Assembly (NCBI GenBank): GCA_026415675.1 | Contig: JAOAGQ010000058.1 | Span: 1 to 64,000, forward strand | Source of the DNA: Syntrophorhabdaceae bacterium | Lineage (GTDB): Bacteria > Desulfobacterota > Syntrophorhabdia > Syntrophorhabdales > Syntrophorhabdaceae | Reading direction: 5' to 3' | DNA: 64,000 nt | Shown here: in pieces, positions 4,918 through 61,734 of the stretch | Numbering within the stretch: the first letter of the stretch is position 1 | How the letters are laid out: every line of letters starts with the position of its first letter | Program-made: the position numbers and the translations under genes | Notes under the pieces: model-generated | Databases searched by the model: none | Told to the model about the DNA's origin: nothing | The model's input: only the letters and a program-made list of their open reading frames with translations

Positions 4918-7023
4918 ATGAAAAAATACGGAGGTTGGGCAGGAAAAGTTCTTCGGGTGAACCTATCGGATAGAAAAATTTCGATAGAGGATACCATTGA
5001 AAAATATAGAGATTTTCTTGGGGGGACGGGGATTGGATATAAGGTCTTCTGGGATGAAGTGTTACCAGGAACGAAACCCTTTGACCCTGAAAATAAGATA
5101 GTATTCGCCGTAGGACCTCTCGCAGGTACAGGCGCGCCTTGCAATGGCCGTACCGCCATTACGACGCTCTGGCCTACATGCTGGCCCAAAGCCCTTATAG
5201 GAACAGGCCACATGGGGGGCAATTTTGCTGCTGAACTAAAATATGCAGGTTACGACGCCATAATTATAGAAGGGAAGGCTAATAAACCTGTTTGGATATC
5301 GATTGTCGATGAAAAAGTTACGATAAACGATGCAGGCCATATATGGGGGCAAGGTATTAGACGGACAACGATCGAGCTCTCCCGTATTCTCGGTTCTGAA
5401 GCCTCTGTCGCCGCAATCGGACAGGCAGGGGAAAACCTCGTCCCCATGTCGGTTGTAATGAATTCTTACTCCCATTCGGCAGGAGGGGTTGGAGCGGTAA
5501 TGGGTTCGAAAAACTTAAAGGCCATTGCCGTTCGAGGCACAGGGGGGATATCAATAGCAGGTAACAGGGAAGAGTGGGAAAGGTTAATCAAATACCACCT
5601 ATCCCTGCTGGGCGCCAATAATCAACATGTGGTTCCCAACTCACCCCAACCATGGGCAGAATTCTATGATCCTGCATCCCGTTGGCTCGCCTCAAAAGGC
5701 CGGGCATGGGGCGCATCCTCTCCAGTAATTGAAACAGGCCCATGTGACCCTCGGGACCTAAACCGGATAGCCTATCGTACCAACAACGCCGCCTTTTATC
5801 TCGGTGAAATAGCATGGAAGTATACAGTGAGGGGAAGTGGCTGTACCGGCTGCCCTATCCGTTGCCATACAATGATAAAGATTCCTTCCGCTGCGGCTAA
5901 ATACGGTATCCCCGAAATAGGGATGAACACATGTGGAGGTCTGAACTTTGGTAGGTCCTTCTTCAGGAACTTCCCCGATGGCATGAGAGGGCTCACCAAT
6001 GTGGAAGCCTGTATGGTCGGTATGCACATGGCCGATGATTATGGTATCTGGTGTAACTACGGTCAGTTACAAAGAGATTTCCAGAAACTCTACTATGAAG
6101 GGATCATAAAAAATAAACTCGGTGAAAAGGAATTTAAAAGCTATTCCTGGGACAAATATGAAAAGGGAGACCCCTCATTCCTCTTTGAACTGCTCCCGAG
6201 AATCGCCTTTAAAGAAGGGGAGCTGGGGACTGCCCTCGGTCTTGGGACAGGGGCTCATCTCGAGAGATGGGGACTTTCAGAGAGCGAATGGAAGAAGGAT
6301 CCAAAATTGAACTACTGGAAGATGGGACACCCAAAACACCACTCAAACGAAGAGGTTGGGCAGTGTGGTGTGATCATCAACACCCAGTATAATAGAGATG
6401 CCCAATGCCACTCCCATACCAATTTCGTCCGTAACGGTCTCCCCCTGGAGGTACAGAAACGTCTCGCTGAAGAGATATGGGGAACCCCTGACGCTGTGGA
6501 CGGGGTGGGTGCCTATACCCCAATGAATGTAGGCAAGGCCCGTATGGCCAAATGGTCCCTCTTAAGAAAAGAGCTCCACGATTCCCTCTCCCTCTGTAAC
6601 TGGATGGGACCATGGGTTGCCTCACCTCTTAAGAACCGTAACTATAGAGGAGACGATACCATAGAATCCATGCTCTACACCCTCGCCACAGGGGACAGAA
6701 AAAGCCGTGAAGAATTGGATTTAATTGCAGAAAGGATTTTCCTCCTCCACCGTGCCATAACCATCAGGGATATGAATACAAAGGAAATGCGCAAGGAACA
6801 CGACACGATCCCCGATTGGGTATTTTATGATCCCCAAAAAAGGCCTGTATATACAAAAGGCACCATTCACCTTGATCCAAAAGATATGGAGCTGGCCATG
6901 GATATGTTTTATCAGGAGATGGGCTGGGACAGAACAACCGGTGCCCCGACATATGAGACTTACAGAAAGGTGGGGCTGGAAGAAGTGGCAAAGGAATTAA
7001 AGAAGAGAGGTCTTTTGCCTTGA
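4918..7023 (+). CDS. aldehyde ferredoxin oxidoreductase family protein, YdhV-like
   Basis: Tungsten- or molybdenum-bis-pterin oxidoreductase of the AOR family. The 701 residues start with the AOR N-domain (GWAGKVLRVNLS, then GGTGIGYKVFWDEV) and continue with AIGQAGENLVP and the GAVMGSKNLKAIAV motif. The [4Fe-4S] cluster ligands are CTGCPIRC (309, 312, 316) and the late cysteine in SLCNW (560). Overall it closely recalls E. coli YdhV, whose physiological substrate is unresolved, more than the archaeal AOR or FOR enzymes. It lies 71 bases after the ferredoxin gene with a strong AGGAGGAG site. Because the partner ferredoxin has a Tat signal while AORs lack one, either hitchhiker export or a membrane-edge complex is possible. 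Confidence 0.93.
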   Translation: MKKYGGWAGKVLRVNLSDRKISIEDTIEKYRDFLGGTGIGYKVFWDEVLPGTKPFDPENKIVFAVGPLAGTGAPCNGRTAITTLWPTCWPKALIGTGHMGGNFAAELKYAGYDAIIIEGKANKPVWISIVDEKVTINDAGHIWGQGIRRTTIELSRILGSEASVAAIGQAGENLVPMSVVMNSYSHSAGGVGAVMGSKNLKAIAVRGTGGISIAGNREEWERLIKYHLSLLGANNQHVVPNSPQPWAEFYDPASRWLASKGRAWGASSPVIETGPCDPRDLNRIAYRTNNAAFYLGEIAWKYTVRGSGCTGCPIRCHTMIKIPSAAAKYGIPEIGMNTCGGLNFGRSFFRNFPDGMRGLTNVEACMVGMHMADDYGIWCNYGQLQRDFQKLYYEGIIKNKLGEKEFKSYSWDKYEKGDPSFLFELLPRIAFKEGELGTALGLGTGAHLERWGLSESEWKKDPKLNYWKMGHPKHHSNEEVGQCGVIINTQYNRDAQCHSHTNFVRNGLPLEVQKRLAEEIWGTPDAVDGVGAYTPMNVGKARMAKWSLLRKELHDSLSLCNWMGPWVASPLKNRNYRGDDTIESMLYTLATGDRKSREELDLIAERIFLLHRAITIRDMNTKEMRKEHDTIPDWVFYDPQKRPVYTKGTIHLDPKDMELAMDMFYQEMGWDRTTGAPTYETYRKVGLEEVAKELKKRGLLP

Positions 7024-13666: not shown

Positions 13667-15364
13667 ATGGGCAAAGGGATTGAACAGTTTGGAGAGGTTT
13701 TAAAGACCGATGTCCTTATCGTAGGAGGTGGTCTTGCAGGAAACAACGCTGCCATAGCAGCCTGTGAAGTAGGGGCAAAGGTACTGATAGCGGATAAGAG
13801 TTCAATTGAGAGGTGCGGCGCCATCGCCGGCGGGGTTGACCACTTTATGGCCTATCTGAATACGGATACATGGGATACAAGGGAGGCCTATCTTGAGTGG
13901 GCAGGAAGGATAGCGAGAGGGGCGGTAAATTTAAAGATCCAGAACGCCGTTTTCTGCAGGGAGCTGGAGGCGGCAATAGAGAGGATGGACAGGATTGGCT
14001 GCTCTTTAAGACAACCTTCCGGAGAGTTCTACAGGACAACATCCTTCGGGTTGCCCGGTCCTTATATGATCAACTTCAACGGGAAGAACTTGAAACCCCT
14101 TCTGGCAAAAGAGGCGAGAAGACTCGGGGCAATGACCCTTGAAAAGTGTTCGATCACAAACCTCCTTACAAACGGAAACGGTAAGGTGATCGGCGCGGTG
14201 GGATTCAATATAAGAAAGGGGAATTTTTACATCATCCTTGCGAAGACGACGATACTCGCAACGGGGAATACGAACAGGATTTTCCAGAATCCAACAGGTC
14301 TCCCCTTTAATACATGGCAGTGTCCTGCAAATACCGGTGCCGCCCAGACCATGGCCTTCGAGGTGGGGGCCCATCTTGCCAACATGGAGATAGTGAGAAT
14401 AACCGTTGTGCCGAGGGGTTTCAGTGCAGCAGGTCTTAACGCCCTAACCGGTATGGGTGGTAAAATCGTAAATGCCAAGGGTGAAGAATTTATGTTTAAA
14501 TACCATCCGATGGGAAACAAGGCACCGAGGTATAAACTCGTAGAAGGGGTAATGAGGGAGATAGAAGAGGGTAGAGGACCCGTCTACATAGACTGTCGCC
14601 ACCTATCGGAAGGGGATATGAAACACCTAAAAACCACCCTCGGTTACGATAAGGACACCCTCCCTGATTTTATAGAGCAGAAGGGGATAGACTTAAGAAA
14701 GGACCTCCTTGAGATTATGGCCTCCGAGGGTATGCAGGCAGGGCCATCCGAGATCTGTTCAAGCGGCATCATGATCGATGAGGAGACAAAATCGACTGTG
14801 GAAGGCCTTTTTGGGGCCGGGGACTGTACAGACCAGATGCGTTGTTCCCATGTCTGCACAACAGGGGGGTATCTCGCAGGCAAGATGGCAGCCAAATATG
14901 CCCTGACCTTCACCCAGGAGGAGCCGAGTGTAAACCAGGTGAAGGAGTTAAAGAGAAAGGTATATGCCCCGATGAGGGCATCGGGGAAGGTGTCACAGAA
15001 GTCATTTGAAGATACCATGAGAAGGATGCTCTGGGTTTACGCAGGGGCATCGAGAAACGAATATAGCCTAAATACCGCCCTTGAGAAACTCGACGGTCTT
15101 GAAAAATATTTTAATGAGATCAAGGCGGGTAACTACCACGAACTTATGCGTACCCACGAGACGAGGCAGATTTTGAGTGTTGCAAAGATGATGTGCCATG
15201 CATCCCTTGCCAGAAAAGAGACGAGGTTTGGTGTATTCCACAGGAGGACAGATTATCCCGAGACAAACCCCGAATTTGACGGCCAGATTGTGGTTGTGAA
15301 TACAGATCAGGGGATTAAGACATTTTTTAACAAGCTCGATTACTCAACCATACCTGAACCTTAA
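13667..15364 (+). CDS. AprA-like FAD-dependent oxidoreductase (fumarate reductase/APS reductase superfamily)
   Basis: FAD enzyme of the SdhA/FrdA/AprA superfamily, cytoplasmic, 565 residues. Seen: the N-terminal dinucleotide fold (DVLIVGGGLAGNNAA, residues about 15-29), an AprA-like GAIAGGVDHFMAYLN segment, and the C-terminal FAD contact (TVEGLFGAGDC) followed by a GGYLAGK helix. The fumarate reductase HPT motif is absent, and residues flanking the active site more resemble AprA, but genuine sulfate-reduction AprA is longer (about 620-660 residues) and its partners (sat, qmo) are not here. It is followed 22 bases later by a two-cluster ferredoxin and then by a TAXI-TRAP importer, so it most likely oxidises or reduces the imported organic acid. 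Substrate unknown. Confidence 0.82.
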   Translation: MGKGIEQFGEVLKTDVLIVGGGLAGNNAAIAACEVGAKVLIADKSSIERCGAIAGGVDHFMAYLNTDTWDTREAYLEWAGRIARGAVNLKIQNAVFCRELEAAIERMDRIGCSLRQPSGEFYRTTSFGLPGPYMINFNGKNLKPLLAKEARRLGAMTLEKCSITNLLTNGNGKVIGAVGFNIRKGNFYIILAKTTILATGNTNRIFQNPTGLPFNTWQCPANTGAAQTMAFEVGAHLANMEIVRITVVPRGFSAAGLNALTGMGGKIVNAKGEEFMFKYHPMGNKAPRYKLVEGVMREIEEGRGPVYIDCRHLSEGDMKHLKTTLGYDKDTLPDFIEQKGIDLRKDLLEIMASEGMQAGPSEICSSGIMIDEETKSTVEGLFGAGDCTDQMRCSHVCTTGGYLAGKMAAKYALTFTQEEPSVNQVKELKRKVYAPMRASGKVSQKSFEDTMRRMLWVYAGASRNEYSLNTALEKLDGLEKYFNEIKAGNYHELMRTHETRQILSVAKMMCHASLARKETRFGVFHRRTDYPETNPEFDGQIVVVNTDQGIKTFFNKLDYSTIPEP

Positions 15365-15386
15365 AAAGAAAGGAGGAGAACGGTCT

Positions 15387-15593
15387 ATGCCCCCGGTTAT
15401 TGATCTTGATAAATGTACGGGATGTGGGACCTGTGATGCCCATTGCCCCCTTGATGTTATCCATTATAACGAGAAGAAGAACATACCTGTTGTAAAGTAC
15501 CCCGATGAATGCTGGCACTGTGGCTCTTGCCGCCTTGACTGCCCGGTGGGGGCCATCACGATAAAATTCGGACCGGAGATGCTCTACGTGTAG
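15387..15593 (+). CDS. two-cluster ferredoxin, electron partner of the AprA-like protein
   Basis: A 68-residue soluble ferredoxin with CTGCGTCDAHCP and CWHCGSCRLDCP, the ligands for two [4Fe-4S] clusters. The first part resembles AprB, but the roughly 80-residue AprB tail that wraps AprA is missing. A strong AGGAGGAG site precedes the ATG. Position directly after the flavoprotein indicates an AprAB-like two-subunit enzyme. Confidence 0.9.
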   Translation: MPPVIDLDKCTGCGTCDAHCPLDVIHYNEKKNIPVVKYPDECWHCGSCRLDCPVGAITIKFGPEMLYV

Positions 15594-15651
15594 CAGATAA
15601 TCGCCGATGCGGCTTTATAAGTAAGTTTTTTCTAAAAAGGGGAGGTCTATT

Positions 15652-16632
15652 ATGAAGAGGATTATAAAACGTATAACCATCGTCGGTTTTCTATTTCTGG
15701 TTAGCGTATCTCTCTATCCCTTTCCTGTTGAAGGTGCATCAGAACTCATCCCCCTTTACACCCCTCCTGTTGGTGGCACTGCCTATACCCTCGGCACAGG
15801 TATAGTAAGTGTAACAAATAAATACATAACCGATGCAAAACTCGTCCATGAAGCCACAAGCGGAACCCTCGATATGGTGAAAAGGATGATGCAGAGGGAT
15901 GGGGCAAACAAACCTGCCTTTGCCATATTCGGTTCCCCCGATGCGTGGCGGGCTTATAAGGGTCAGGATGAATATAGCAAAAAACCGTTTACAAACCTAA
16001 GGGCCATAGTATTCGTAAATGCATCAGATCAGTACCTTGTGGTGCCTGCCAACTCACCTATTAAAACATACGGGGATGTTAAGGGAAAAAGGATAGGTAT
16101 AGGGGGCCCAGGGAGTACCGTTGCAAACAGTGCCTTTACATTTCTGAAATACCACGGTGTTGATAAGAATGATTTTAAACCGTACTACTATAACTACAGG
16201 GAGACCGCGGAAGGTATACAGAATGGGAGCCTTGACGGTGGTTTCATAGGAGGGGGGTATCCAATAGCCATATATACTGAACTTACCCTTCAACACAACG
16301 TCCGCATAGTGCCTGTTGATGAAAAGGTGATCAAAAAGGTGATAGAGGAGCATCCTTACTATTACAGGGGTGTTGTTAAGGCAAAATCTTACAAAGGCCT
16401 CGAGAGCGACACCACGATATACGGTTTCACCACCGTCCTCTGGACCCTGGCCAATGTGAGTAACGACTTTATTTACAGGGTATTGAAAAACCTCTTCGAC
16501 CATAAAGAAGAGTATTACGCCATACACAAATCTGCCAGGGACATGACAAAAGAGGATGCAGCGAAAGGTGTTCCTCTTCCGTTTCACCCCGGGGCAGAGA
16601 GATACCTGAAGGAGATAGGTGCCATAAAATAA
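15652..16632 (+). CDS. TAXI-family TRAP solute-binding protein
   Basis: Periplasmic receptor of the TAXI branch of TRAP transporters, 326 residues. It has a signal peptide (MKRIIKRI, hydrophobic core, likely cleavage at VEGAS). The mature N-terminus has the family signature GGTAYTLGTGIVSVTNKY and, in the middle, the VKGKRIGIGGPGSTVAN segment. GGGGAGGT-type site (GGGGAGG) precedes the ATG. It is followed seven bases later by the fused permease. TAXI systems import organic acids such as glutamate or oxoacids; the ligand here cannot be read. Confidence 0.92.
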   Translation: MKRIIKRITIVGFLFLVSVSLYPFPVEGASELIPLYTPPVGGTAYTLGTGIVSVTNKYITDAKLVHEATSGTLDMVKRMMQRDGANKPAFAIFGSPDAWRAYKGQDEYSKKPFTNLRAIVFVNASDQYLVVPANSPIKTYGDVKGKRIGIGGPGSTVANSAFTFLKYHGVDKNDFKPYYYNYRETAEGIQNGSLDGGFIGGGYPIAIYTELTLQHNVRIVPVDEKVIKKVIEEHPYYYRGVVKAKSYKGLESDTTIYGFTTVLWTLANVSNDFIYRVLKNLFDHKEEYYAIHKSARDMTKEDAAKGVPLPFHPGAERYLKEIGAIK

Positions 16633-16639
16633 ATCTAAA

Positions 16640-18574
16640 ATGACCGAAACAAAACCCTCTGCCCCTTTTAAACCTAAAAAATTTCCGGGTTTTAGAAGGT
16701 TACTGATATCCGTCATCGCCGTCTCAATGGCTCTGTTCCATCTATATACCGCCGGGGGCAGAATGCTTCCCGGGGTTCAACAGAGGACGGTACATCTCTC
16801 TTTTGTGCTTGCCCTGGTATACCTTATCTATCCCTTAAAAACAAAATCCGATGAATCAAAGGAAGATAAGGTTTCCGATGAAGAAAGACCCTTTTCTATA
16901 GTAGACGGTATATTTCTCATCCTCTCTTTTTCGATAGGTCTTTATGTCTTTTTAGAGTATGAGGCGTTGAGTTTTCGCATGGGGGAACCGAATATCCCCG
17001 ACAACATCTGTGGTACCGTTGCCATACTTTTGATACTTGAGGCTACAAGGCGGGTCCTCGGCTGGTCCGTTGTTATAATATGCGGGGTATGTTTTTTATA
17101 CCTCATATTCGGTACACATCTCCCCCTTTCCTTCTCCCATACCGGTTTTTCTTTAGAGCAGATAGTAAATTTTATTTCTTTCAGTACAGACGGTGTGTTG
17201 GGTCCTGCCCTTGCCGTATCCTCAACGGTGATTGCCGTTTTTATCATTTTTGGGGCGTTTTTACAGGTCTCAGGGGCAGGGCAGATGTTTATCGATATAG
17301 GGATGTCCCTCTTTGGAAAGTTCAGGGGTGGTCCTGCCAAAGCAAGCGTCCTCGCCGATACCCTCTTCGGTATGATTACAGGGAGTCAGGTGGCCAATGT
17401 GGCTGCCGTTGGGACGTTCACAATACCCCTTATGAAGAAGGTAGGGTATAAAGGAGAGATAGCGGCAGTGATTGAGGCTGTCGGTGCAACAGGGGCCATG
17501 ATCATGCCTCCGGTGATGGGGGCTGCGGCATTTATCATACCTGAAATCATAGGTGGTACCTATCTCGATGTCTGTAAGGCAGCGATCATCCCTGCTCTAC
17601 TCTGGTATGCCACCCTCTATATGATAGTCGAATTGCAGGCTGCGAAGATGGGTTTAAAAAAGATCCCAAAGGAAGAGTTGCCCCGGATAAGGGATGTCTT
17701 AAAAGATAAGGGCCATATGGTGTTGCCCATCGCCGTTCTTATATTTTCCCTCGTTTTTATGGGCGCGACCGCCTCAAGGGCAGCATTCTGGGGAACCCTC
17801 TTTTGTTTTTTGATAAGCCAGATAAAGGGTGATACGAGGATGGGTCTTAAAAAACTGTTGGCCGGCCTCGAGGCAGGGGCAAAGGGGACAGTCCTTGTAG
17901 CTATATGCTGCGCCTCGGCAGGAATAATCACCGGTACGGTGGGTATGGCTGCCCTCGGGGAACGCTTCTCCGATATCCTGATCACCATCGCAGGGGGAAA
18001 TCTCCTCTTCCTTCTTGTTCTAACCATGCTTGCTTCCCTCGTCCTGGGATTACCATTACCCCCTGTTACCTGCTATCTTATCTTGGCAGTACTCGCGGCC
18101 CCTGCAATGATAAAGGCAGGGGTACACCCTATGGCTGCCCATCTCTTCGTCTTTTTTTTCGGTACACTGGGTAACATTAGTCCTCCCGTTGCCCCCACAT
18201 CGTTTACCGCAGCCGGCATAGCAAAATCGGATCCGATCCGCACGACAAACCTTGCCTTTATCTATTCGTTGCCAGGGTGGCTTGTGCCCTTTCTCTTTGT
18301 TTACAGTCCTGAGGTGATACTGAAGGGTTCAACGGGGATGATAATCCTCAGGGTCTTTACCTCCTTTATTGCGATATGTACAATGGCAACGGCATTTCAG
18401 GGATATCTTTTGCATGCCCTTAGCTGGCCCATGAGGTTATCGATACTGGTTGCCGGCCTCATCCTCATATACCCCCACTGGATGACAGATGTCATAGGGT
18501 ACTCTTTTTTACTATTTTTATTATCCCTCCATGTGATTGCCCATAAAAAAACCTATATCGAGGTGAATCAATGA
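16640..18574 (+). CDS. fused TRAP permease (4TM/12TM) of the TAXI type
   Basis: Membrane component in which the DctQ-like four-helix part (residues about 15-165) is fused to the DctM-like part (about 180-640), the normal arrangement for TAXI transporters; 644 residues. Recognisable features are AFLQVSGAGQMFIDIGMSLF, the GSQVANVAAVGTFTIP and AVGATGAMIMPPVMGAAAF stretches and the LGLPLPPVTCYLILAVLAAPA region. Expected sodium-driven uptake. Its stop overlaps the next gene by four bases (ATGA). Confidence 0.94.
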   Translation: MTETKPSAPFKPKKFPGFRRLLISVIAVSMALFHLYTAGGRMLPGVQQRTVHLSFVLALVYLIYPLKTKSDESKEDKVSDEERPFSIVDGIFLILSFSIGLYVFLEYEALSFRMGEPNIPDNICGTVAILLILEATRRVLGWSVVIICGVCFLYLIFGTHLPLSFSHTGFSLEQIVNFISFSTDGVLGPALAVSSTVIAVFIIFGAFLQVSGAGQMFIDIGMSLFGKFRGGPAKASVLADTLFGMITGSQVANVAAVGTFTIPLMKKVGYKGEIAAVIEAVGATGAMIMPPVMGAAAFIIPEIIGGTYLDVCKAAIIPALLWYATLYMIVELQAAKMGLKKIPKEELPRIRDVLKDKGHMVLPIAVLIFSLVFMGATASRAAFWGTLFCFLISQIKGDTRMGLKKLLAGLEAGAKGTVLVAICCASAGIITGTVGMAALGERFSDILITIAGGNLLFLLVLTMLASLVLGLPLPPVTCYLILAVLAAPAMIKAGVHPMAAHLFVFFFGTLGNISPPVAPTSFTAAGIAKSDPIRTTNLAFIYSLPGWLVPFLFVYSPEVILKGSTGMIILRVFTSFIAICTMATAFQGYLLHALSWPMRLSILVAGLILIYPHWMTDVIGYSFLLFLLSLHVIAHKKTYIEVNQ

Positions 18575-19575
18575 AAGTTATAGACGTCCACAACCATCTA
18601 TACCCGGTAAAATGGCTTGATTTTTTAAAAGACAGGGAAGGTACTCTCAAGCTCATCAAAAAAGACAGAACAAACATGGCCTTCTACTACAGAGGGACGA
18701 GACTTGCGACCATTAATACGGCCGGTCATTTTGACCCCATCGAGAGGATAAAGGATATGGATGCATATGGAATCGATATACAGATTATGAGTCTCACCAC
18801 CCCGGGGGTTGAGCTTATATCCCCTTCAGAGGGTGTCTACTGGGCAAAAGAGATAAACGACTACTTTGCCTTACTTTGCGAAACATACAAGGGGCGTCTT
18901 TTTTTCAACGCCGTCATCCCCTGTAAGGACGTAAAGGAGACGGTTAAGGAGATGGAAAGGGCGAAGAAGGATCTATCTGCAAAGGGGATCACCATGTTTT
19001 CAAACATAGACGGTGAGCCCATATACTCAGAGGCATACCTTCCCATCTTTGAGGCGGCCGAAGGATACGACCTTCCCATATTCATCCACCCGGCACCCCC
19101 TGTCACAACGGAGGTGATGAGCCGCATGAGAATGCCCCTACCCCTTTTTGGGTTTATCATCGATACAACAATGGCCGTCACAGGTCTTATATTCAACGGG
19201 ATTACCGAGAGGTTTCCCGGTCTTAAGATAGTCCATGCCCATCTTGGAGGGGTCTTTCCTTATCTCGTCGGTAGGATAGATGACTGTTACAATACATATA
19301 AAGATGATTTTGGTTTTTCCCTAAAGGAAAAGCCCTCGGAATATTACAGAAGGAATGTCTATGACGATATAATCTCTTTCCATACCCCTGCCCTGAGGTG
19401 CGCCATTGAATTTATGGGGACCGATAGACTTATGGTAGGAACGGATTATGCCCATCCCATCGGTGGACCCGAGAGGGCTTTAAATTCGATAAAGTCATTA
19501 GGGTTAGACCCCGATGATATAGATAAGATCATGGGGGGAAATGCAGCTCGGCTCTATAATATACCCTTAGAATGA
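18571..19575 (+). CDS. amidohydrolase-family 2 (ACMSD-like) metal-dependent hydrolase or decarboxylase
   Basis: Cytoplasmic TIM-barrel metalloenzyme of the ACMSD/amidohydrolase_2 family, whose members decarboxylate or hydrate aromatic and related acids. The 334 residues show the metal ligands HNH (7 and 9), a histidine at 173 (FIHP), HAH (222 and 224) and the catalytic aspartate near 292 in GTDYAHP. The ATG overlaps the permease stop (ATGA), placing it in the same operon as the flavoprotein and importer. This supports an aromatic or unsaturated carboxylic acid as substrate, which is inference only. Confidence 0.88.
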   Translation: MKVIDVHNHLYPVKWLDFLKDREGTLKLIKKDRTNMAFYYRGTRLATINTAGHFDPIERIKDMDAYGIDIQIMSLTTPGVELISPSEGVYWAKEINDYFALLCETYKGRLFFNAVIPCKDVKETVKEMERAKKDLSAKGITMFSNIDGEPIYSEAYLPIFEAAEGYDLPIFIHPAPPVTTEVMSRMRMPLPLFGFIIDTTMAVTGLIFNGITERFPGLKIVHAHLGGVFPYLVGRIDDCYNTYKDDFGFSLKEKPSEYYRRNVYDDIISFHTPALRCAIEFMGTDRLMVGTDYAHPIGGPERALNSIKSLGLDPDDIDKIMGGNAARLYNIPLE

Positions 19576-45021: not shown

Positions 45022-46023
45022 ATGGATTTAACGAAGGGACGGGTTATATTAACATCTCTAATCCTCTTTGCCTTTTTTGCATGTTTTTTACCGACCAATC
45101 ACACTTTCGGCCAGGTAAACTACCCTACAAAGCCCATAAACCTCTTAATCGGATATGCCCCAGGAGGGGTGGTCGATATCTCCGAGAGGTTTATGGCGAG
45201 TAAGGCGGAGAAATTTTTAGGGCAGCCCATTGTGGTTACAAATAACGGTGGGGGAGGGAGTTCCGTTGCCTTCGGTATCGTGGCTAAAAAGCCTGCAGAT
45301 GGCTACAATCTTGTAGGGGGGGCAAGTACAGGTCTTGTAAGAATCCCCCAGTTTAGAAGTGTACCCTACACGATGGATGACTTTGTTCCCATCATGCACT
45401 TTGCCACCCCTGTTTTGACCCCCATAGTGGTAAAATCTACATCCCCCTGGAAGACATTCAAGGAACTCGTGGAATATGCGAAGAAAAACCCTGGAAAAAT
45501 CACATACAGTACGACCGGGGTGGGCTCGCCAATGCATATAGCGATGGAGTTTGTGGCAAAACAGGAGGGGATATCATGGACCCATATCCCTTACCCTGGG
45601 GCAGTACCAGCCTTTACCGCCCTTCTCGGAGGCCACGTAATGGTAAACGCCGGTGCCGGGGAGAGCATCCCCTATATAAAGGACGGCACCGTCCGTATCC
45701 TTGCAAATTTAAGTGAAAACAGGGTGAAGAGCTGGCCAAATGTACCGACCTTGAGGGAACTGGGATACGATATCTATAATGAATCCGTATTCCTCTTCGC
45801 CGCGCCGAAGGGGACTCCAAAGCCCATCATAGACAAACTGGACAACGCCTTCAGGAAGGCAATGGATGACCCCGAATTCTTATCCGTTATGGCGAAGGTA
45901 GAGTTTGAGCCTTCATACAGAAATTCAGAGGATACGAGAAAATACCTCGAAGACGCCTATAAAAGGATAGGCCGTCTTATAAAGGAACTAAAGATACCCA
46001 TGGAGGAAACCCAGAAAAAATGA
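45022..46023 (+). CDS. tctC: tripartite tricarboxylate transporter receptor TctC (Bug family)
   Basis: Periplasmic binding protein of 333 residues. A signal peptide (ILTSLILFAFFACFLPTNHTFG) precedes the mature part with the TctC pattern: YPTKPINLLIGYAPGGVVD, then NNGGGGSSVAFG and the domain-two DGTVRILANLSENR and PVTPTLxE-like WPNVPTLRELG. The ribosome-binding site AGGAGGTG is strong. First gene of a complete tctCBA operon. Binds a carboxylate, not further identifiable; tctB overlaps by four bases. Confidence 0.94.
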   Translation: MDLTKGRVILTSLILFAFFACFLPTNHTFGQVNYPTKPINLLIGYAPGGVVDISERFMASKAEKFLGQPIVVTNNGGGGSSVAFGIVAKKPADGYNLVGGASTGLVRIPQFRSVPYTMDDFVPIMHFATPVLTPIVVKSTSPWKTFKELVEYAKKNPGKITYSTTGVGSPMHIAMEFVAKQEGISWTHIPYPGAVPAFTALLGGHVMVNAGAGESIPYIKDGTVRILANLSENRVKSWPNVPTLRELGYDIYNESVFLFAAPKGTPKPIIDKLDNAFRKAMDDPEFLSVMAKVEFEPSYRNSEDTRKYLEDAYKRIGRLIKELKIPMEETQKK

Positions 46024-46472
46024 ACGCTGATAAGGCAGGGGGTCTTTTCTGGTTATCTGTTGCGGTCGTTGTTTCTTATGCCTCCTACCGCCTCGGTATC
46101 GGGAGTTTTAGTTCCCCCGGTGCAGGTTTTATGCCTTTCTATGCCGCTATCTTTCTCGGGGTTTTATCGCTCATATCCATATTAGGTAAGGCAGGAGGGG
46201 TAAAAAAAGAGAAAGGAGCCCCTCCTATTATTGGCATAAAGGGGATAAAAGGGGCCTTCATCTTCGTTGTACTTATGGCCTATGGATTTTTTATCCCGTT
46301 CCTGGGGTATAACATCACCACCTTTCTCCTCATGGTGATTCTCTTTTTCATCGTCGAGAAGCAAAAGGTCTGGAAGGCGGCACTCTATGCGTTTATCGCA
46401 ACGGCAACCACCTATTATGTGTTCTCAAAGTGGCTTAACTGTCAGTTCCCTTTAGGCCCTTTAGGCTTCTGA
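46020..46472 (+). CDS. tctB: tripartite tricarboxylate transporter small permease TctB
   Basis: Small membrane subunit of 150 residues with four hydrophobic helices and the family-typical GSFSSPGAGFMPFYAAIFLG near residues 27-46. It overlaps tctC by four bases (ATGA) and is followed eight bases later by tctA. Confidence 0.93.
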   Translation: MNADKAGGLFWLSVAVVVSYASYRLGIGSFSSPGAGFMPFYAAIFLGVLSLISILGKAGGVKKEKGAPPIIGIKGIKGAFIFVVLMAYGFFIPFLGYNITTFLLMVILFFIVEKQKVWKAALYAFIATATTYYVFSKWLNCQFPLGPLGF

Positions 46473-46480
46473 GGCACGGT

Positions 46481-47992
46481 ATGGGTATCATTGACAACCT
46501 TCTCCTCGGTTTTCAGATAGCACTGATGCCTGTAAACCTTCTCTTCTGTTTTGTAGGCGTTGTCATAGGGACCCTTGTGGGTGTCCTCCCAGGCATAGGG
46601 CCTGTAGGGGCTATGGCCCTACTGCTCCCCACTACATTCGGTATCTCCCTCCATTCAAGTCTTATCATGCTTGCCGGTATATACTACGGCGCCATGTACG
46701 GAGGGTCTACAACATCCATTCTCGTCAATATTCCCGGGGAGGCGGCCTCAGTTATCACCTGCATAGACGGCTACCAGATGGCACGACAGGGTCGGGCAGG
46801 CCCTGCCCTTGGGATATCCGCAATCGGTTCTTTTATCGGGGGGAGTCTATCCCTCATTGGTCTTATGCTTATCGCGAGACCCCTTGCCAATGTGGCCCTT
46901 GAATTCGGACCGCCCGAGTACTTTGCCCTTATGTGCGCAGGGCTCATTATCCTCACATATCTAACCCAGGGCTCGATCGTAAAGTCCCTGATGATGGCCC
47001 TTGTGGGCATCCTTCTGGGTTCCATAGGTCTCGATGTGGTGATGGGTTTGCCCCGTTTTACCTTTGGGATCAACGAACTGACGGACGGGGTCGGTATAAT
47101 ACCCCTTGTCATGGGGCTCTTTGGGATCTCAGAGGTCCTCACAAATATTGAGACGGAGATTAAAAGGGAGATCTTTTACACGAAGATAAAGAATATATGG
47201 CCCTCGATAAAGGATTATGCCCAGTCAAAGGGGGCGATCATAAGAGGTTCTCTAATCGGTTTTTTTCTGGGGATTCTACCAGGGGGAGGGGCGATACTCG
47301 CATCGTTTCTCTCCTATGCCGTTGAGAAGAAGATAAGTAGAGAACCTGAAAGATTCGGGAAAGGGGCTATAGAAGGGGTCGCAGGCCCTGAAACCGCGAA
47401 CAACGCTGCGGCAGGAGGGGCAATGATACCTCTTTTATCCCTCGGCATACCCCCCAATGTGGTGATGGCGATGCTCTTCTCCGCCTTTATCATCCACGGG
47501 GTACAACCGGGTCCCATGCTGATGAAGAATAGCCCCGATGTCTTCTGGGGGCTTGTCGTGAGCATGTATGTGGGAAATGCAATGCTTCTCTTTTTGAATC
47601 TCCCATTAATCGGCCTATGGGTGCAGTTGTTGAAGATACCGTACAGGATACTCATGCCCATGATCCTCCTCTTCTGTCTCATAGGGGCATACAGCGTGAA
47701 CAATTCTGCCTTCGATGTAATGCTGATGGTCTTTTTCGGTGGTGTAGGTTATCTTATGAGGAAGTTCGGTTACGAGGCTACCCCCCTTGTCCTTGCCTTT
47801 GTGATGGGACCCCTCCTAGAACAGAATCTGCGCCAGTCCCTGTTGATATCAAAGGGGAGTTTCTCTATTTTCATATCACGACCTATCTCCGCCGTTATGC
47901 TCTCCGTTGCCTTTCTCCTTCTCCTTACGAATATTCTACCGTTCATGAAGGGGAAAAGAAGAAAAGTGGATGAGATTTTAAAGGAAGAATGA
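46481..47992 (+). CDS. tctA: tripartite tricarboxylate transporter large permease TctA
   Basis: Large permease of 503 residues with about twelve helices. Conserved segments include VGVLPGIGPVGAMALLLP (residues about 34-51), the GAMYGGSTTSILVNIPGEAASV motif (near 70-91, given here in parts) and LGIPPNVVMAMLFSAFI. No catabolic gene lies directly beside the operon, which is followed by the DUF748 gene. Confidence 0.95.
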   Translation: MGIIDNLLLGFQIALMPVNLLFCFVGVVIGTLVGVLPGIGPVGAMALLLPTTFGISLHSSLIMLAGIYYGAMYGGSTTSILVNIPGEAASVITCIDGYQMARQGRAGPALGISAIGSFIGGSLSLIGLMLIARPLANVALEFGPPEYFALMCAGLIILTYLTQGSIVKSLMMALVGILLGSIGLDVVMGLPRFTFGINELTDGVGIIPLVMGLFGISEVLTNIETEIKREIFYTKIKNIWPSIKDYAQSKGAIIRGSLIGFFLGILPGGGAILASFLSYAVEKKISREPERFGKGAIEGVAGPETANNAAAGGAMIPLLSLGIPPNVVMAMLFSAFIIHGVQPGPMLMKNSPDVFWGLVVSMYVGNAMLLFLNLPLIGLWVQLLKIPYRILMPMILLFCLIGAYSVNNSAFDVMLMVFFGGVGYLMRKFGYEATPLVLAFVMGPLLEQNLRQSLLISKGSFSIFISRPISAVMLSVAFLLLLTNILPFMKGKRRKVDEILKEE

Positions 47993-48026: not shown

Positions 48027-51000
48027 ATGAAAAACATATGGTATTCAATAAACCATTACAAAAAAAGCATTCTTATAAGCCTCCTAGTCCTTATTTTCCT
48101 TTTCTCAGTTACGGGTTTCTTTGTCCTTCCCCCTCTATTGAAATCCATCATTACAGGCAAGATAAAAGAGCATATAGGCAGGGATGTATCGATAGGTCAG
48201 ATCCGTTTTAACCCTTATACCCTCACCGCAAAAGTCCGGGGCCTTTCCATAACGGATAGGGGCAGCCCTGAGGTATTCCTCTCCTGCGATGAGATACTTG
48301 TAAACCTTGAAGGGCTCTCCATCTTTAAAATGGCCCTTGTTATGAAGGAACTGAAACTTACAAAACCTTACATTAAAGTGGTAAGAAAAAAAGATTTTAC
48401 CTACAATTTTTCGGATCTTCTTGAAACGAAGAAAGAGGATGGAGAAAAGAAGAAGGGAACCCCAACCACCCCTTTAAGATTCTCTCTCAACAATATCACC
48501 GTTGAAAATGGGTCAATAGATTTTATCGATGAGCCGAAGGGGACAAAACATACGGTGCGGGATATGAGGATAGGCATACCCTTTATATCGAACATACCCT
48601 CCGATGTTGAAAAGTACGTACAACCATTTTTTTCTGCAACCATCAACGATGCCCCCTATGTGTTAAAAGGAAAGACAAAGCCTTTTTCCGATTCCCTCGA
48701 GACAACCTTTGATGTGAAGATCAAAGACCTCGATATGGTCGATTACTTCCCATACCTTCCCTTCAAGACAAAATTTGTGCTCCCTTCGGGAAGCCTCGAC
48801 GTAGAGGGGAGGATAAGCTATATACAGTCTAAAAAGGCAAAGCCTTCCCTGACTGTAGAAGGCAATGTATCCATAAAAGACTTAATGATTGGAGGCGATA
48901 AAAAACAGAACCTCCTCGGTATAGCCCTTCTTAATATACAGATGCTTCCCTCAGAGGTATTTTCAAAGACATTCCACATATCAAAGGTATACCTAGAATC
49001 TCCATACGTACTCGTTGAAAGGGAAAAAGACGGGGGGATGAATCTAAAGGCGTTGATCCCTGAGGGAGATATTGAAAAAAATGTAGAAAAAGAAAAATCG
49101 GATAAACCTTCTGATATCAAACTCCAAGTAGACGATGTAACATTAAGCAAAGGGAGAATCGAGTTTTCCGACAGATCTCTCCCCGAACATTTCAAGACCG
49201 TCCTTGCTCCCCTTGACCTCTCGGTAAAGGGGTTCAGTAACAAAAAAGAGGCAAAGGCTACCTATAAAATAGAGATAACGACAGAATCAAAAGAGAAGAT
49301 AGGCATGGAAGGACTCTTTTCCATCGACCCCATTCAATCGGAAGGGAATATAAAGCTGGCCTCTATATCCATTAAAAAATATAGTCCATTTTATAACGAC
49401 CTCTTCCCCTTCATAGTAGAGAGTGGATACGGGGACATCGCCACATCTTACAGATTCAAAAAAGGGGTGAAAGATGCGGAAATAGATTTATCAGACCTCG
49501 CCTTATCTATAAAGGATATAAAGCTTAAACTAAACAAAACCGAACAGGAATTTTTAAAATTACAGGAGTTTTCTATCAAAAACGGGATCCTGGATCTAAA
49601 CAAGAAGGAGGTTCACCTCGGAAGCATCGTAACAAAAAGAGGATGGATCATGGCAAAAAGGTTAGAGGGGGGTGATCTGGACATCGTAAAATCCCTGTCA
49701 AAGACGAAAAAAGAAGAGGATAAGTCGCCCATCCCAAAAGAAGAAAATAAACCAAAAGAGGATAAAGGGTCATGGAAATTTTTGTTGCACCACCTCTTTC
49801 TTGACGACTATAGCCTCACCCTTACAGATGCGTCTACACCAATACCTGCCAGGATGGAGATCCAAAAGATAAAAATTACCGGGGAGAATATAGGAAACGA
49901 AAGGGACAAAAAAGGAAAGATAAGCTCCTCCTGTCTCATAAACAAAAAGGGACGGGTCTTTTTTGAAGGGAGGGTGTCTCCCATACCCCTCTCGGCAGAA
50001 CTTAAAGTCGATGTCGATAATGTAGAGGTGATACCATTTCAACCCTATTTCATGGACAAGGTAAATATAATGGTAACAGGTGGCTCGGTATCCACAAAAG
50101 GTCAGGTTTCATTACTCCAAAAGGATGAGGATCTGAACTTTTCATTCAAGGGAGATGGGATTCTCTCGAGATTCTCTTCCATAGACAGGCTCGATGGTAA
50201 GGAGATGGTCAACCTTGATTCCCTTTCTCTAAACGATGTCAATGTCCATTATAAACCCCTGTCGTTGCACATAAAGGGTGTCTCTTTGTCGGACTTCTAT
50301 GCCTTCGTATATATAAACCGGGAAGGGAGGTTAAACCTCATCGAGGCATTTAAAAAAGAGGCCCCCCAGGAGGATAAAGAGAAGACAACAAAGGCCAAGG
50401 ATGGGCAAATAAAAATCGGAGAGGATATTAAGACCCCATCCGGAGAGGACAAAAAGGCGGAGATAAGGATAGACGATGTTTCCCTGGTCAGGGGGAGTAT
50501 CACCTTTCACGACAGCTATATAAAGCCCGAATTCTCAGCTACTCTATCGGAGATGACAGGAAGGGTCACCGGTTTATCATCCAAGACAGGTTCAACAGGG
50601 GATGTGGAATTCCTCGCAAAACTGAACAACTTTGCCCCGATAGAGATAAAGGGCAGGATAAACCCCTTCCAGAAAGACCTCTTTGTCGATATAAGCGCAA
50701 AGATAAAGGATCTCGACTTAAGCCCCGCAACACCTTACTCGGGAAAATATGTGGGGTATACCATAGAGAAGGGTAAACTCTCCTATGAGGCTAAATACTC
50801 CATAGTTGAACGTAAGATAGATGCGGAAAACAGGGTATTTATAGACCAGTTTACATTTGGGGACAGGGTCGACAGTCCCCATGCAACAAACCTCCCCGTA
50901 AGGCTCGCCATAGCCCTTCTGAAAGACAGAAATGGCCGAATTAACCTCGAACTCCCCGTAACGGGAAGTCTCGATGACCCAAAATTCAGTATCGGGAAGA

Positions 51001-51650
51001 TCATCCTCCAGATCATAATAAATATCATAGTAAAGGCCGTTACATCCCCCTTTGCCTTACTCGGTGCGATATTCGGCGGGGGCGAGGAACTAAGTTATAT
51101 CGAGTTTGATTACGGTAGTGCTTCCATTACTGAATCGGCGATGAAAAAGATCACGAGCATAAGAAAGGCCCTCTCAGACAGGCCTTCCCTTAATCTTGAG
51201 ATTGAGGGCCATGTAGACGGCGAAAGGGACAGGGATGGCCTTAAGGTGATGCTCCTTAAAAGAAAGGTTAAGCTCCAGAAACTAAACGAGATGATGAAGA
51301 GAAATATGGCAAAGGTTCCTGTTGACGATGTCCCGATAGAGGAAGGGGAATACCAAAGGTATCTGAGGATGGCATACAGGGCCGAGAAGTTCCCTAAACC
51401 GAGGAACATAATAGGTATGGTGAAGGACATACCTGTCGCCGAGATGGAGAAGCTGATGTTGACCCATATTGAAGTTACAGAGGGGGACTTAAGGAACCTC
51501 GCATCAAACAGGGCCATGCGTGTAAAAGAGGAAATCTTGAAAACAGAAGGGATAGGTTCCGAGAGGATTTTTATTGTTGAGCCCAAATCCCTGGTGCCTG
51601 ATAGAAAACCAAAAATAAAAGAGAGCAGGGTTGATCTAAAACTCAAATAA
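48027..51650 (+). CDS. DUF748 (AsmA-like) giant envelope protein with OmpA-like C-terminus
   Basis: A 1207-residue protein with one N-terminal membrane helix (about residues 12-34), then a long periplasmic part made of beta-rich AsmA/DUF748 domains. The repeated pattern G-x-[IL]-x-[FL]-x-D recurs near residues 162, 376, 595 and 823, a period of roughly 215-230 residues. The last 150 residues include FDYGSASITESAMKKI and IEGHVDG, which resemble an OmpA-type domain. AsmA-like proteins are candidates for moving phospholipid between membranes. Position between tctA and the dehalogenase homologue seems incidental. Confidence 0.88.
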   Translation: MKNIWYSINHYKKSILISLLVLIFLFSVTGFFVLPPLLKSIITGKIKEHIGRDVSIGQIRFNPYTLTAKVRGLSITDRGSPEVFLSCDEILVNLEGLSIFKMALVMKELKLTKPYIKVVRKKDFTYNFSDLLETKKEDGEKKKGTPTTPLRFSLNNITVENGSIDFIDEPKGTKHTVRDMRIGIPFISNIPSDVEKYVQPFFSATINDAPYVLKGKTKPFSDSLETTFDVKIKDLDMVDYFPYLPFKTKFVLPSGSLDVEGRISYIQSKKAKPSLTVEGNVSIKDLMIGGDKKQNLLGIALLNIQMLPSEVFSKTFHISKVYLESPYVLVEREKDGGMNLKALIPEGDIEKNVEKEKSDKPSDIKLQVDDVTLSKGRIEFSDRSLPEHFKTVLAPLDLSVKGFSNKKEAKATYKIEITTESKEKIGMEGLFSIDPIQSEGNIKLASISIKKYSPFYNDLFPFIVESGYGDIATSYRFKKGVKDAEIDLSDLALSIKDIKLKLNKTEQEFLKLQEFSIKNGILDLNKKEVHLGSIVTKRGWIMAKRLEGGDLDIVKSLSKTKKEEDKSPIPKEENKPKEDKGSWKFLLHHLFLDDYSLTLTDASTPIPARMEIQKIKITGENIGNERDKKGKISSSCLINKKGRVFFEGRVSPIPLSAELKVDVDNVEVIPFQPYFMDKVNIMVTGGSVSTKGQVSLLQKDEDLNFSFKGDGILSRFSSIDRLDGKEMVNLDSLSLNDVNVHYKPLSLHIKGVSLSDFYAFVYINREGRLNLIEAFKKEAPQEDKEKTTKAKDGQIKIGEDIKTPSGEDKKAEIRIDDVSLVRGSITFHDSYIKPEFSATLSEMTGRVTGLSSKTGSTGDVEFLAKLNNFAPIEIKGRINPFQKDLFVDISAKIKDLDLSPATPYSGKYVGYTIEKGKLSYEAKYSIVERKIDAENRVFIDQFTFGDRVDSPHATNLPVRLAIALLKDRNGRINLELPVTGSLDDPKFSIGKIILQIIINIIVKAVTSPFALLGAIFGGGEELSYIEFDYGSASITESAMKKITSIRKALSDRPSLNLEIEGHVDGERDRDGLKVMLLKRKVKLQKLNEMMKRNMAKVPVDDVPIEEGEYQRYLRMAYRAEKFPKPRNIIGMVKDIPVAEMEKLMLTHIEVTEGDLRNLASNRAMRVKEEILKTEGIGSERIFIVEPKSLVPDRKPKIKESRVDLKLK

Positions 51651-51674
51651 CTATTAACAATCACAGGAGATTTA

Positions 51675-52811
51675 ATGAGCGGATACCACAGAAGGGTTTT
51701 TGAAAATTTTCCCATGGACAGGATCAAAAGGGTGGACAAACCGACAACACAGGTGGAAGAAGAAAAAATAAAGAGGGTAGACGAACGGGAGAGCGGCTTT
51801 AACAGGGCCGCAAGGGGGGATTTCGGTGCATATCTCAAAGAGCAGAGGCCCCGCTTTGTTATGAAACACCCCATCTCCGGCGCTTTAGGACAGATGCAGG
51901 TATTTTTACGGGATATTGTGGATGGTATTGTTGCAAAACATAAGGCCCCCATCCCCGATGACCCCGAGATACTGTCAAAACATATCAAGGAACTCGCCTA
52001 TTTTTTAAGGGCCGATGGGGTAGGTATCTGTAAACTCCCCCGTTATGCGGTATACACTAACAGCTTTCCTGACGGTGAACCGGTGGAGTGCAACCACAAG
52101 TTTGCCATAGCCATACTCATCGACCAGGATTGGCGCACATCTATTGCCACAACGGGCCATGACTGGATCAGCAATTCGATGAGCTTTATGGCCTATTCCG
52201 CATCGGGTTTTATCGCCTGTATAATTGCAGACTACATAAGGAGACTTGGATACCCCGCAAGGGCACACCATGCGAGGAATTACCAAGTGGTCGTTCCCCC
52301 TATCCTCCTCTGGGCGGGGCTTGGTGAAATGTGCCGCATAGGCGATTGCGTGCTCCACCCTTTCCTGGGGCCGAGATTCAAGGCAGCGGTTGTCACTACG
52401 GATCTACCTCTACTTCCAGACAAGCCCATTGACTTTGGTCTTCAGGATTTCTGCTCAAAATGCAAAAAATGTGCCCGGGCATGTCCATCAGGGGCCTTAA
52501 GCGAGGGCGACAAAATTATGTACAACGGATATGAACGTTGGCCGACGGATGTGGAAAAATGTACGGCCCTGCGGGTAGGAAACAAAAGAGGTTCAGGTTG
52601 TGGTACATGTATAAAGGTCTGCCCTTGGAACAAACCGTATACTCCGTTTCACAGGACGGTCAACTGGATGATAAGACACTCTGGTTTGGCGAGAACAATC
52701 GCTATCTGGGCAGACGACCTTATAGGCTATGGAAAACCAGAGCCAGAAAAAAAGTGGTGGTTTGATCTCGAAGAGGTCGGGGAAAGACTCATAATCCCGA
52801 AGTCCTCATGA
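51675..52811 (+). CDS. cytoplasmic reductive dehalogenase (RdhA)-like corrinoid iron-sulfur protein
   Basis: RdhA/QueG-superfamily protein of 378 residues. The segment AGLGEMCRIGD, then GPRFKAAVVTTDLPL and PIDFGLQDFC is the RdhA core. Two [4Fe-4S] sets are visible: C260/263/266/270 (CSKCKKCARACP) and C296 with C309/312/316 (CGTCIKVCP), the RdhA CX12CX2CX3C spacing. There is no Tat signal or membrane helix and no rdhB anchor, unlike respiratory dehalogenases. It may therefore be a cytosolic corrinoid reductase in dehalogenation or another reductive chemistry. MAYSASG near residue 180 holds a candidate catalytic tyrosine, which needs alignment. Confidence 0.83.
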   Translation: MSGYHRRVFENFPMDRIKRVDKPTTQVEEEKIKRVDERESGFNRAARGDFGAYLKEQRPRFVMKHPISGALGQMQVFLRDIVDGIVAKHKAPIPDDPEILSKHIKELAYFLRADGVGICKLPRYAVYTNSFPDGEPVECNHKFAIAILIDQDWRTSIATTGHDWISNSMSFMAYSASGFIACIIADYIRRLGYPARAHHARNYQVVVPPILLWAGLGEMCRIGDCVLHPFLGPRFKAAVVTTDLPLLPDKPIDFGLQDFCSKCKKCARACPSGALSEGDKIMYNGYERWPTDVEKCTALRVGNKRGSGCGTCIKVCPWNKPYTPFHRTVNWMIRHSGLARTIAIWADDLIGYGKPEPEKKWWFDLEEVGERLIIPKSS

Positions 52812-59197: not shown

Positions 59198-61063
59198 ATG
59201 GTGGATCATTTCGATATCATTGTAGTTGGAGCAGGCCATGCGGGGTGTGAGGCGGCCCTTGCCTCGGCGAGGATGGGCTTCAAAACCCTCCTTCTCACCA
59301 CGAATATAGACCACATTGCCTTTATGTCCTGTAACCCCGCGGTAGGAGGCCTCGGCAAAGGCCACCTCGTAAAGGAAATCGATGCCTTAGGGGGTGAGAT
59401 GGGGATCAACACCGATGCCACCGGCATTCAGTTCAGGGTGTTGAACATGAAAAAGGGGCCTGCGGTGAGGGCAACGCGGATACAGACGGATAAGATGAGA
59501 TATGCCTTAAGGATGAGGGGTGTTCTCGAGCATCAGGAAAACTTAAACATCCATCAGTCTTCTGTTGAAAGTTTACTCATCGAGGGCGACACCGTATATG
59601 GTGTAGAGACGAAGTGGGGGCAGAGGTTCTTCGGGAAATCGGTGATCCTCACAACAGGAACATTCCTAAACGGTTTGATCCATATCGGGCTTACCCATTT
59701 TGACGGGGGCAGGATGGGGGATATGGCCTCCCATGGGCTCTCCGATAACTTAAAATCCCTGGGTTTCCGCATAGGTAGACTCAAGACAGGAACATGTCCC
59801 CGCCTCGACGGAAGAACCATAGACTTTACAAAACTCGAACCCCAGCATAGTGATGATCCCCCCCATCCCTTCTCGTTCATGACAGAACGGATCGATAACC
59901 GTCTTATACCCTGTTATCTCACATACACGAATCAAGAGACCCATGAAGTGATAAGGGGGGGTCTCGATCGGTCTCCCCTTTATACAGGCAAAATAAAAGG
60001 TACAGGGGTACGCTACTGCCCTTCCATCGAGGATAAGATATTCCGGTTTGCGGAGAAAGAGAGGCACAGGGTCTTCATCGAGCCTGAGGGGCTCGATACG
60101 GTCGAGTTTTATCCAAACGGGCTCTCGACGAGTCTCCCCCTCGACATACAGATAAAGATGTTAAGGAGTATTAGAGGCCTCGAATCCGTAACATTTACAA
60201 GGCCTGGATACGCAATAGAGTATGATTTTGTTTATCCTGACCAGCTCTACCCCACCCTTGAGACAAAGATCATAAAGGGGCTCTACCTTGCAGGTCAGAT
60301 AAACGGCACCACCGGATACGAAGAGGCGGCGGCCCAGGGTATTATGGCAGGGATAAACGCATGCCTCTCTTTAAAAGGGGAGGAACCGTTCGTGTTAAGA
60401 AGGGATGAGGCGTACATAGGGGTCTTGATAGATGACCTGGTGACCAAAGGGGTGGATGAACCTTACCGGATGTTTACCTCAAGGGCAGAGATGAGGCTCC
60501 TCTTAAGGGAGGATAACGCAGACTTGAGACTCACCGAAAAGGGATATGCTATAGGTCTTGCCGGTATTAAAAGATACGAAAAGATGGTGGAAAAGAGGAG
60601 GAAGATAGAGGAGATCCACGGTATGCTAAGATCCATTAGGCTAAAACCGACACAACAGCTAAAGGATATGCTCTTTACCTTTGGCATAGAGGGGATTAAA
60701 AACCCCTTTACCCTCGAAGACTTATTAAAAAAACCGGATGTGGGGTTTTCTGAGTTGAAAAAGTTAGATTCGAGGCTTATAAATGTAGAGGACGATATTG
60801 CCTATCAGGTGGAATTAAATGTAAAATACCGTGGTTATATCGAAAGGCAACTCGACATGGTGGAAAGGACAAAAAGGCTCGAGGATATGAGGATACCTTT
60901 GGACTTTACATACAAAGATGTGCCAGGCCTATCAAGGGAGGTAATCGAAAGGCTAACGAAGATAAGACCCCTGACCTTGGGTCAGGCATCGCGGATCCCC
61001 GGGGTAACCCCTGCTGCGGTTACAGCCCTTATGATCGACTTTAAGAAAAGAGGGTTGATATGA
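59198..61063 (+). CDS. mnmG: tRNA uridine-5-carboxymethylaminomethyl modification enzyme MnmG
   Basis: FAD- and NADH-dependent enzyme that with MnmE installs cmnm5 or similar groups on U34 of certain tRNAs. The 621-residue length is standard. It contains [17 protein letters not shown] at the N-terminus, [24 protein letters not shown], the [10 protein letters not shown]-type [12 protein letters not shown] and the C-terminal YRGYIERQ. Overlaps the following gene by four bases. Confidence 0.96.
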
Positions 61064-61734
61064 AAACGGGGTATATGAACGACCTTGTGAAGGGGTTACT
61101 CGATGGTTACGGGGTCGATGTCTACGGTTTCGGACATATAACCCAATACGATAGACACCTCCTGGGATTACCCGTTGCGACGGGGTCTCAATTACCCTAT
61201 CTAATCACCTTCGGCCTTCTACTATCGAGGGCCGTAATGGAGACTACAAAGGATGGTCCAAACCTCTTATACCTCCACCATTACAGGCAACTAAACTACA
61301 GACTCGATATGATAGGCTATCTCCTTGCAGGGGAGATCGAGAAGAAAGGGTACAGGGCAATGGCCTTCCCTGCCTCCCAGTTGATCGACTGGCGGAACCA
61401 GAAAGGGCATATCTCCCATAAACATACGGGGGTTGCATCAGGACTCGGATGGATAGGGAGGAATAACCTCCTCATCCACCCGAAATACGGGGCTTATGTG
61501 AGATATAATACGGTTTTAACGGAGATGCCCCTCGATGCGGATACCCCCCTTGAAAGAGGCTGTGGGGCCTGCAGGGCATGTATCGATGTATGCCCTGCAG
61601 GGGCGATTAAAGAGTCCCCTGTTGATTTTGACCATAAGGGATGTTATGAGATGATAACCCAGCTTAAAAATAAGAGGAATATTGGCCACCATATATGCGG
61701 TATATGTGTCGAGCCATGTAGAGGTGAGAGATGA
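61060..61734 (+). CDS. short QueG-like [4Fe-4S] protein (epoxyqueuosine reductase homologue)
   Basis: A 224-residue member of the QueG/RdhA-related family. The first part ([10 protein letters not shown]...) resembles the QueG cobalamin-binding core, [25 protein letters not shown] is a conserved signature and the clusters are [16 protein letters not shown] and CYEMITQLK with CGICVEPC. The 350-380 residue QueG has a C-terminal HEAT-like extension that is missing here, so this is a smaller branch whose substrate is uncertain. Overlaps both mnmG and carA by four bases. Confidence 0.82.

Follow-up and report, generated by a model that had tools for sequence, protein, structure and literature searches.

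The rdhA homologue P0001, encoded on the forward strand at positions 51675-52811 of the analysed window (the whole stretch of 64,000 nucleotides), was found to be an intact ORF with an ATG start, whose single-domain product of 378 aa is best explained as a cytosolic dehalogenase dependent on a corrinoid and two [4Fe-4S] clusters. This enzyme would remove a halogen placed ortho to a phenolic hydroxyl, for carbon use (or detoxification) and not for respiration, a reading to which a probability of roughly 0.7 was assigned. We infer that the substrate is most likely a halogenated hydroxy-aromatic acid, from which bromine, chlorine or iodine would be released. The description of P0001 as a catabolic-type dehalogenase in minimal form is well supported, its function being predicted from the sequence. 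It was not counted among the catabolic RdhAs as these are defined in PMC10463259, because it lacks their defining vestigial duplication.

The match of P0001 to the reductive dehalogenase (RDH) model TIGR02486 reached 200.3 bits and exceeded the curated cut-off of 160.35, which places it far from chance. The cysteines C260/263/266/270 and C309/312/316 plus C296 supply the [4Fe-4S] ligands with RdhA spacing, and neither motif varied across the 62 alignment rows that were tallied. With the GLGE/GPR/VVTTDLPL core also present, the original prediction of an RdhA homologue carrying both iron-sulfur motifs and this core was borne out. A search with PF13486 (Dehalogenase) gave no match to P0001, a result that is uninformative since the same model, in the Pfam copy used, also missed a Sulfurospirillum RdhA and BhbA. 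A Shine-Dalgarno-like stretch containing AGGAG was read from the sequence at positions 51661-51668 of the forward strand, 7 nt 5′ of the rdhA ATG, and the orthologues shared the identical start residue (MSGYHKR...). A promoter and terminator scan returned fewer promoter-like sites than shuffled sequences and nothing usable near rdhA.

It had also been claimed that the protein lacked an export signal, a membrane anchor and an rdhB partner, and each of these points agreed with the analysis. Near the start, the highest Kyte-Doolittle mean over 19 residues was -0.56, and neither a hydrophobic segment nor transmembrane helices were found at the N-terminus. No Tat signal was detected in P0001, in which RRVFE (residues 6-10) is Tat-like but lacks both an h-region and conservation. 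Moreover, the 190 bp 3′ of rdhA contained no rdhB-like ORF, the 5′ neighbour being a DUF748 gene, and profile searches revealed no C-terminal PDOR reductase domain. The core idea of a cytosolic RdhA homologue dependent on an external electron donor was upheld, whereas the accompanying argument that cytoplasmic RdhAs are longer through a reductase domain stood only in part. In the published description, the cobalamin domain of catabolic RdhAs has a vestigial second copy, some of these enzymes also having a reductase at the C-terminus, and this second copy adds to their length as well, as in NpRdhA, which reaches ~700 aa without a reductase (PMC10463259).

The closest structural counterpart of P0001 was NpRdhA of Nitratireductor pacificus (PDB 4RAS, 6ZXU, 6ZY1), the crystallised cytosolic bromo-4-hydroxybenzoate dehalogenase of the aerobic type. 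In a phmmer search of the PDB, NpRdhA was by far the best match, its catalytic half aligning over P0001 residues 11-368 with 343 bits (44% identity on realignment), whereas its vestigial N-terminal half scored 63 bits. P0001 holds one copy of the cobalamin domain and lacks the N-terminal vestigial duplicate. An AlphaFold2 model built from an alignment of 63 rows reached a pLDDT of 92.6 and a pTM of 0.92, by which the fold is confidently predicted; a single-sequence model (pLDDT 32) was discarded. The top Foldseek matches of the model were all NpRdhA, with TMq of 0.91-0.95 and rmsd of 1.4-2.4 Å, and PceA followed at TMq 0.63-0.67. The predicted fold agrees with that of NpRdhA in its cobalamin-bound state. 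Besides the predicted fold, both proteins share the Y/K/R/S site, the cysteine pattern and the absence of a Tat signal and of a reductase domain. The catalytic domain of BhbA (Comamonas sp. 7D-2, plasmid pBHB) was 40% identical to P0001, and JtRdhA is reported with the same Y/K/R residues; however, these self-sufficient catabolic enzymes combine the vestigial domain with a reductase at the C-terminus, neither of which is present in P0001.

In the active site, Y174, K236, R300 and S170 of P0001 correspond to Y426, K488, R552 and S422 of NpRdhA, and the tyrosine expected near residue 180 was located at Y174. Y174, K236 and R300 were invariant in 56/56 single-domain proteins of clade A and group B, and S170 was kept in 54 of them. 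In six other RdhAs of the alignment, arginine occupied the K236 position and a gap faced R300. For NpRdhA, the Y426/K488 pair has been proposed to donate the proton; K488, R552 and S422 hold the phenolic hydroxyl, and K307 forms a salt bridge with the carboxylate of 3-bromo-4-hydroxybenzoate (PMC7565698). The K307 position is taken by R58 in P0001, an arginine present in just 15/43 members of clade A. Up to 2023, every catabolic RdhA that had been characterised was active on ortho-halogenated phenols (PMC10463259).

The mechanism of P0001 is probably that derived from NpRdhA biochemistry. A halogenated acid would enter the cell, plausibly via the TctABC-type transporter encoded upstream, and its phenolic hydroxyl would be held by S170/K236/R300 with the halogen at the cobalt. 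A low-potential ferredoxin may then deliver electrons through the two clusters to the cobalt, and the Y174/K236 dyad would transfer a proton in step with cleavage of the carbon-halogen bond. The freed ring could serve as a carbon source, or the substrate would thus be detoxified.

A non-dehalogenating relative, in which the same fold and cofactors would cleave a hydroxyl, methoxyl or sulfonate group ortho or para to the phenolic hydroxyl, or act on another electrophile, is the strongest competitor, although we consider it improbable at about one chance in six. The clade of P0001 has no known activity, and the literature yielded no assay of any of its members. The clade is also common in many anaerobes, at times in several copies, though halogenated phenolics are scarce in some habitats, and the surroundings of the second halogen site differ, with A419 and M423 of NpRdhA replaced by N167 and F171. 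Against this, P0001 retains the full S/Y/K/R set of NpRdhA, and its sister group holds NpRdhA and BhbA, both bromo-4-hydroxybenzoate dehalogenases. The suggestion of a halogenated or other electrophilic substrate, or of a relative without dehalogenating activity, could in this way be narrowed to a halogenated compound as the favoured option; an epoxide or other electrophile became a minority reading, because P0001 was placed as a single-domain sister of NpRdhA/BhbA with an ortho-halophenol active site.

The genes upstream of rdhA bear on the use of such a substrate as a carbon source. Five genes, all on the forward strand, formed one co-directional run with gaps of no more than ~35 bp, of which rdhA is the last. 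The run starts with a TctC-type solute-binding protein of a tripartite tricarboxylate transporter (45022-46023; from the ORF list and similarity) and proceeds to a TctB-type small membrane subunit that overlaps the tctC end (46020-46472) and, 8 bp further, a TctA-type large permease (46481-47992), to which NCBIfam gave no family; the last two were assigned by position and sequence. A DUF748/AsmA-like envelope protein of 1207 aa (48027-51650) is encoded between tctA and rdhA, with flanking gaps of 34 and 24 bp. DUF748 was examined as a conserved neighbour in a relative (G039) and dropped, there being no real similarity. On pBHB, a TctC-type gene immediately precedes bhbA, and its product shares 31% identity with the TctC of the window. 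Since 7 TctC and 18 DctP genes scored over cut-off in the host genome, finding a transporter next to rdhA is a moderate surprise at most and suggestive only, and the link between tct genes and rdhA was seen in the window alone. NpRdhA is encoded with ferredoxin and ferredoxin-reductase genes (PMC10463259), but the P0001 gene is not so placed, and no ferredoxin gene adjoined rdhA in the window. The claim of nearby ferredoxins failed: the closest genes for Fe-S proteins are a QueG-like ORF ~8 kb downstream and ferredoxin-like ORFs >40 kb upstream.

The neighbourhoods of relatives, with genes for organic-acid transport, ferredoxin or the cleavage of aromatic rings, point to phenolic-acid catabolism. 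TRAP transporter genes were found beside rdhA in five loci (L060, L067, L074, L080 and L113), in several of them accompanied by a GntR/FCD regulator, and also beside an Aminobacter fused homologue. In one group B locus (L124), genes for an HpaB-type monooxygenase, LigA and LigB lie directly upstream of rdhA, calls that were confirmed by Pfam and, for HpaB, also by an over-cut-off equivalog; the same HpaB-LigA-LigB-rdhA layout was found in two further loci (L130 and L133). In six close relatives (L057, L058, L060, L061, L062 and L064), and only in these, a 4Fe-4S ferredoxin gene was linked to rdhA, in a co-directional set with a D-2-hydroxyacid dehydrogenase gene. A search of the host genome for a homologue of this ferredoxin returned only general ferredoxin-domain matches.

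This ferredoxin linkage also agrees with a less probable proposal, given about one chance in ten, in which organohalides act as a cytosolic electron sink that returns ferredoxin or other cofactors to the oxidised state in fermentation or syntrophy ("facilitated fermentation") and the carbon skeleton is left unused. Such a role is among the functions proposed for the DEH-C11 RdhA (PMC4959651). It would also be consistent with the host assembly (2.56 Mb, 99% complete), in which 4-hydroxybenzoyl-CoA reductase beta was represented only by sub-cut-off relatives and class I benzoyl-CoA reductase only by HGD-D pairs under cut-off. That no downstream ring-degradation route was recovered in these searches also counts against the main reading. 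However, the transporter and the aromatic-catabolism neighbours indicate that the substrate is used, and the gene is patchy, being present in 9/39 genomes of the family, some of them with several copies. Regarding the cofactor of the proposed dehalogenase, nine B12-binding domains scored over cut-off in the host genome and CobQ and CobS did not, so the corrinoid is probably salvaged, unless cob genes were missed.

Searching GTDB genomes gave 194 confirmed relatives, and the 80 best of them were carried forward. Among these best 80, the clade A and group B members whose ORF was recovered essentially whole had 353-466 aa and one domain. The taxa represented among them were Deltaproteobacteria/Thermodesulfobacteriota, Myxococcota, Acidobacteria, Aminicenantes, Chloroflexota, Fibrobacterota and two Asgard archaea; clade A includes Desulfobacula and Dehalococcoidia MAGs, and group B, which stands apart, is mostly alphaproteobacterial. 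In the tree, the clade of the window had a support of 99/99, and its neighbour group (99/95) took in group B together with both domains, catalytic and vestigial, of NpRdhA and BhbA. The clade of P0001 is hence a widespread single-domain sister of the group that holds NpRdhA/BhbA.

A cytoplasmic clade without Tat and RdhB, sister to BhbA/NpRdhA, was noticed in 2016 in DEH-C11, a Dehalococcoidia single cell, and in Desulfobacula toluolica Tol2, and catabolic dehalogenation, detoxification and facilitated fermentation were proposed for it without experiment (PMC4959651). The sister position is the one found for the P0001 clade, and P0001 likewise has neither Tat nor rdhB; the missing duplicate and the active-site residues are not described in the passages of that paper available to us. 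P0001 most likely belongs to this clade, as judged from the tree position and the shared taxa, the DEH-C11 and Tol2 sequences not being among those in the tree; what is new would then be this member, the clade itself being already known. Cytoplasmic rdhA genes were also reported in Desulfatiglans-related cells (PMC6129605), and Tat-less RDases in Asgard archaea (PMC6737245).

P0001 might also be a respiratory RdhA whose export signal has been lost, or else a degenerate copy. Transmembrane RdhAs (PMC6797604) and the respiratory PceA share with P0001 the superfamily, the two [4Fe-4S] clusters and the catalytic tyrosine, and relatives of the host genome do encode other RdhAs with N-terminal transmembrane helices. 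Yet those proteins are exported or membrane-bound and P0001 is not, and the transmembrane RdhAs, ~30-36% identical to P0001, have arginine in place of K236. Clade A and group B members are built alike, essentially all without Tat or a hydrophobic N-terminus and with cysteines and active site intact, and P0001 homologues remain 64-79% identical between families, another family of the phylum included, which points to selection; both possibilities are accordingly very unlikely. The least tenable identity, that of QueG or another tRNA-modifying enzyme, shares the class III cobalamin fold and gives a weak model match, and was refuted by a score of 29.1 bits against the TIGR00276 equivalog cut-off of 200 and a Foldseek TM of ~0.4; P0001 also retains the dehalogenase Y/K/R set. 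Of the outcomes named beforehand as refuting the dehalogenase idea, placement within QueG and loss of key residues were both looked for and not seen.

The tree favours an origin of the duplication after the split, inside the NpRdhA/BhbA side, with the reservation that branching of the vestigial copies outside that side was not rejected by the AU test (p 0.189). On the same topology, secondary loss of the vestigial domain in the P0001 clade is the less favoured order of events. In NpRdhA the vestigial domain imitates the dimer interface of PceA; as P0001 has no such domain, it may by analogy form a homodimer. As a tentative extension, held at somewhat below even odds, P0001 could represent the form, homodimeric and without duplication, from which catabolic dehalogenases descend: an enzyme of strict anaerobes that dehalogenates halophenolic acids with electrons from ferredoxin. 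The aerobic NpRdhA/BhbA would have derived from it by internal duplication, one copy decaying to a built-in dimer interface, and partly by reductase fusion.

If the preferred assignment of P0001 as a cytosolic dehalogenase holds, the intracellular dehalogenation of natural and man-made halophenolic acids would be a widespread catabolic trait of anaerobes, and not of aerobes alone, and would proceed without a membrane anchor or a respiratory chain. With 378 aa and no export signal, P0001 may be an easier model of B12-dependent dehalogenation than the respiratory RdhAs, and it makes the origin of the NpRdhA vestigial domain testable.

Other observations concern the window and the relatives. At 61060-61734 (forward strand), beside mnmG, a 224-aa QueG/RDH-like protein scored 74 bits with TIGR00276 and 63 bits with TIGR02486, both below cut-off; open frames of ~220-250 aa that match about as weakly turn up across many genomes of this family, which suggests a short, conserved relative of QueG. 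An aldehyde:ferredoxin oxidoreductase (NF007354, over cut-off) is encoded at 4918-7023 of the forward strand, and a ferredoxin-like gene at 4106-4846 lies just upstream of it. At 13667-19575 (forward strand), 32 kb from rdhA, a cassette encodes a flavoprotein, a TAXI-type binding protein, a fused TRAP permease and an amidohydrolase. In one relative (L113, 2-5964), whose RdhA was 77% identical to P0001, a cassette with the same gene order immediately precedes rdhA; its flavoprotein is 75% and the other three proteins are 27-39% identical to those of the window.

The relatives also encode RdhAs with N-terminal transmembrane helices and another cytosolic single-domain group, at ~30-36% identity (L018, L020, L067, L080, L105 and L115; L016, L017, L021, L034, L049, L073 and L102), and the six aligned proteins with arginine instead of lysine at position 236 come from among these. 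Three contigs (L096, L097 and L098) seemingly carried the same tandem rdhA pair and neighbours, although L096 and L098 are filed as Acidobacteria and L097 as Dehalococcoidia, so one of these MAGs may be misbinned.
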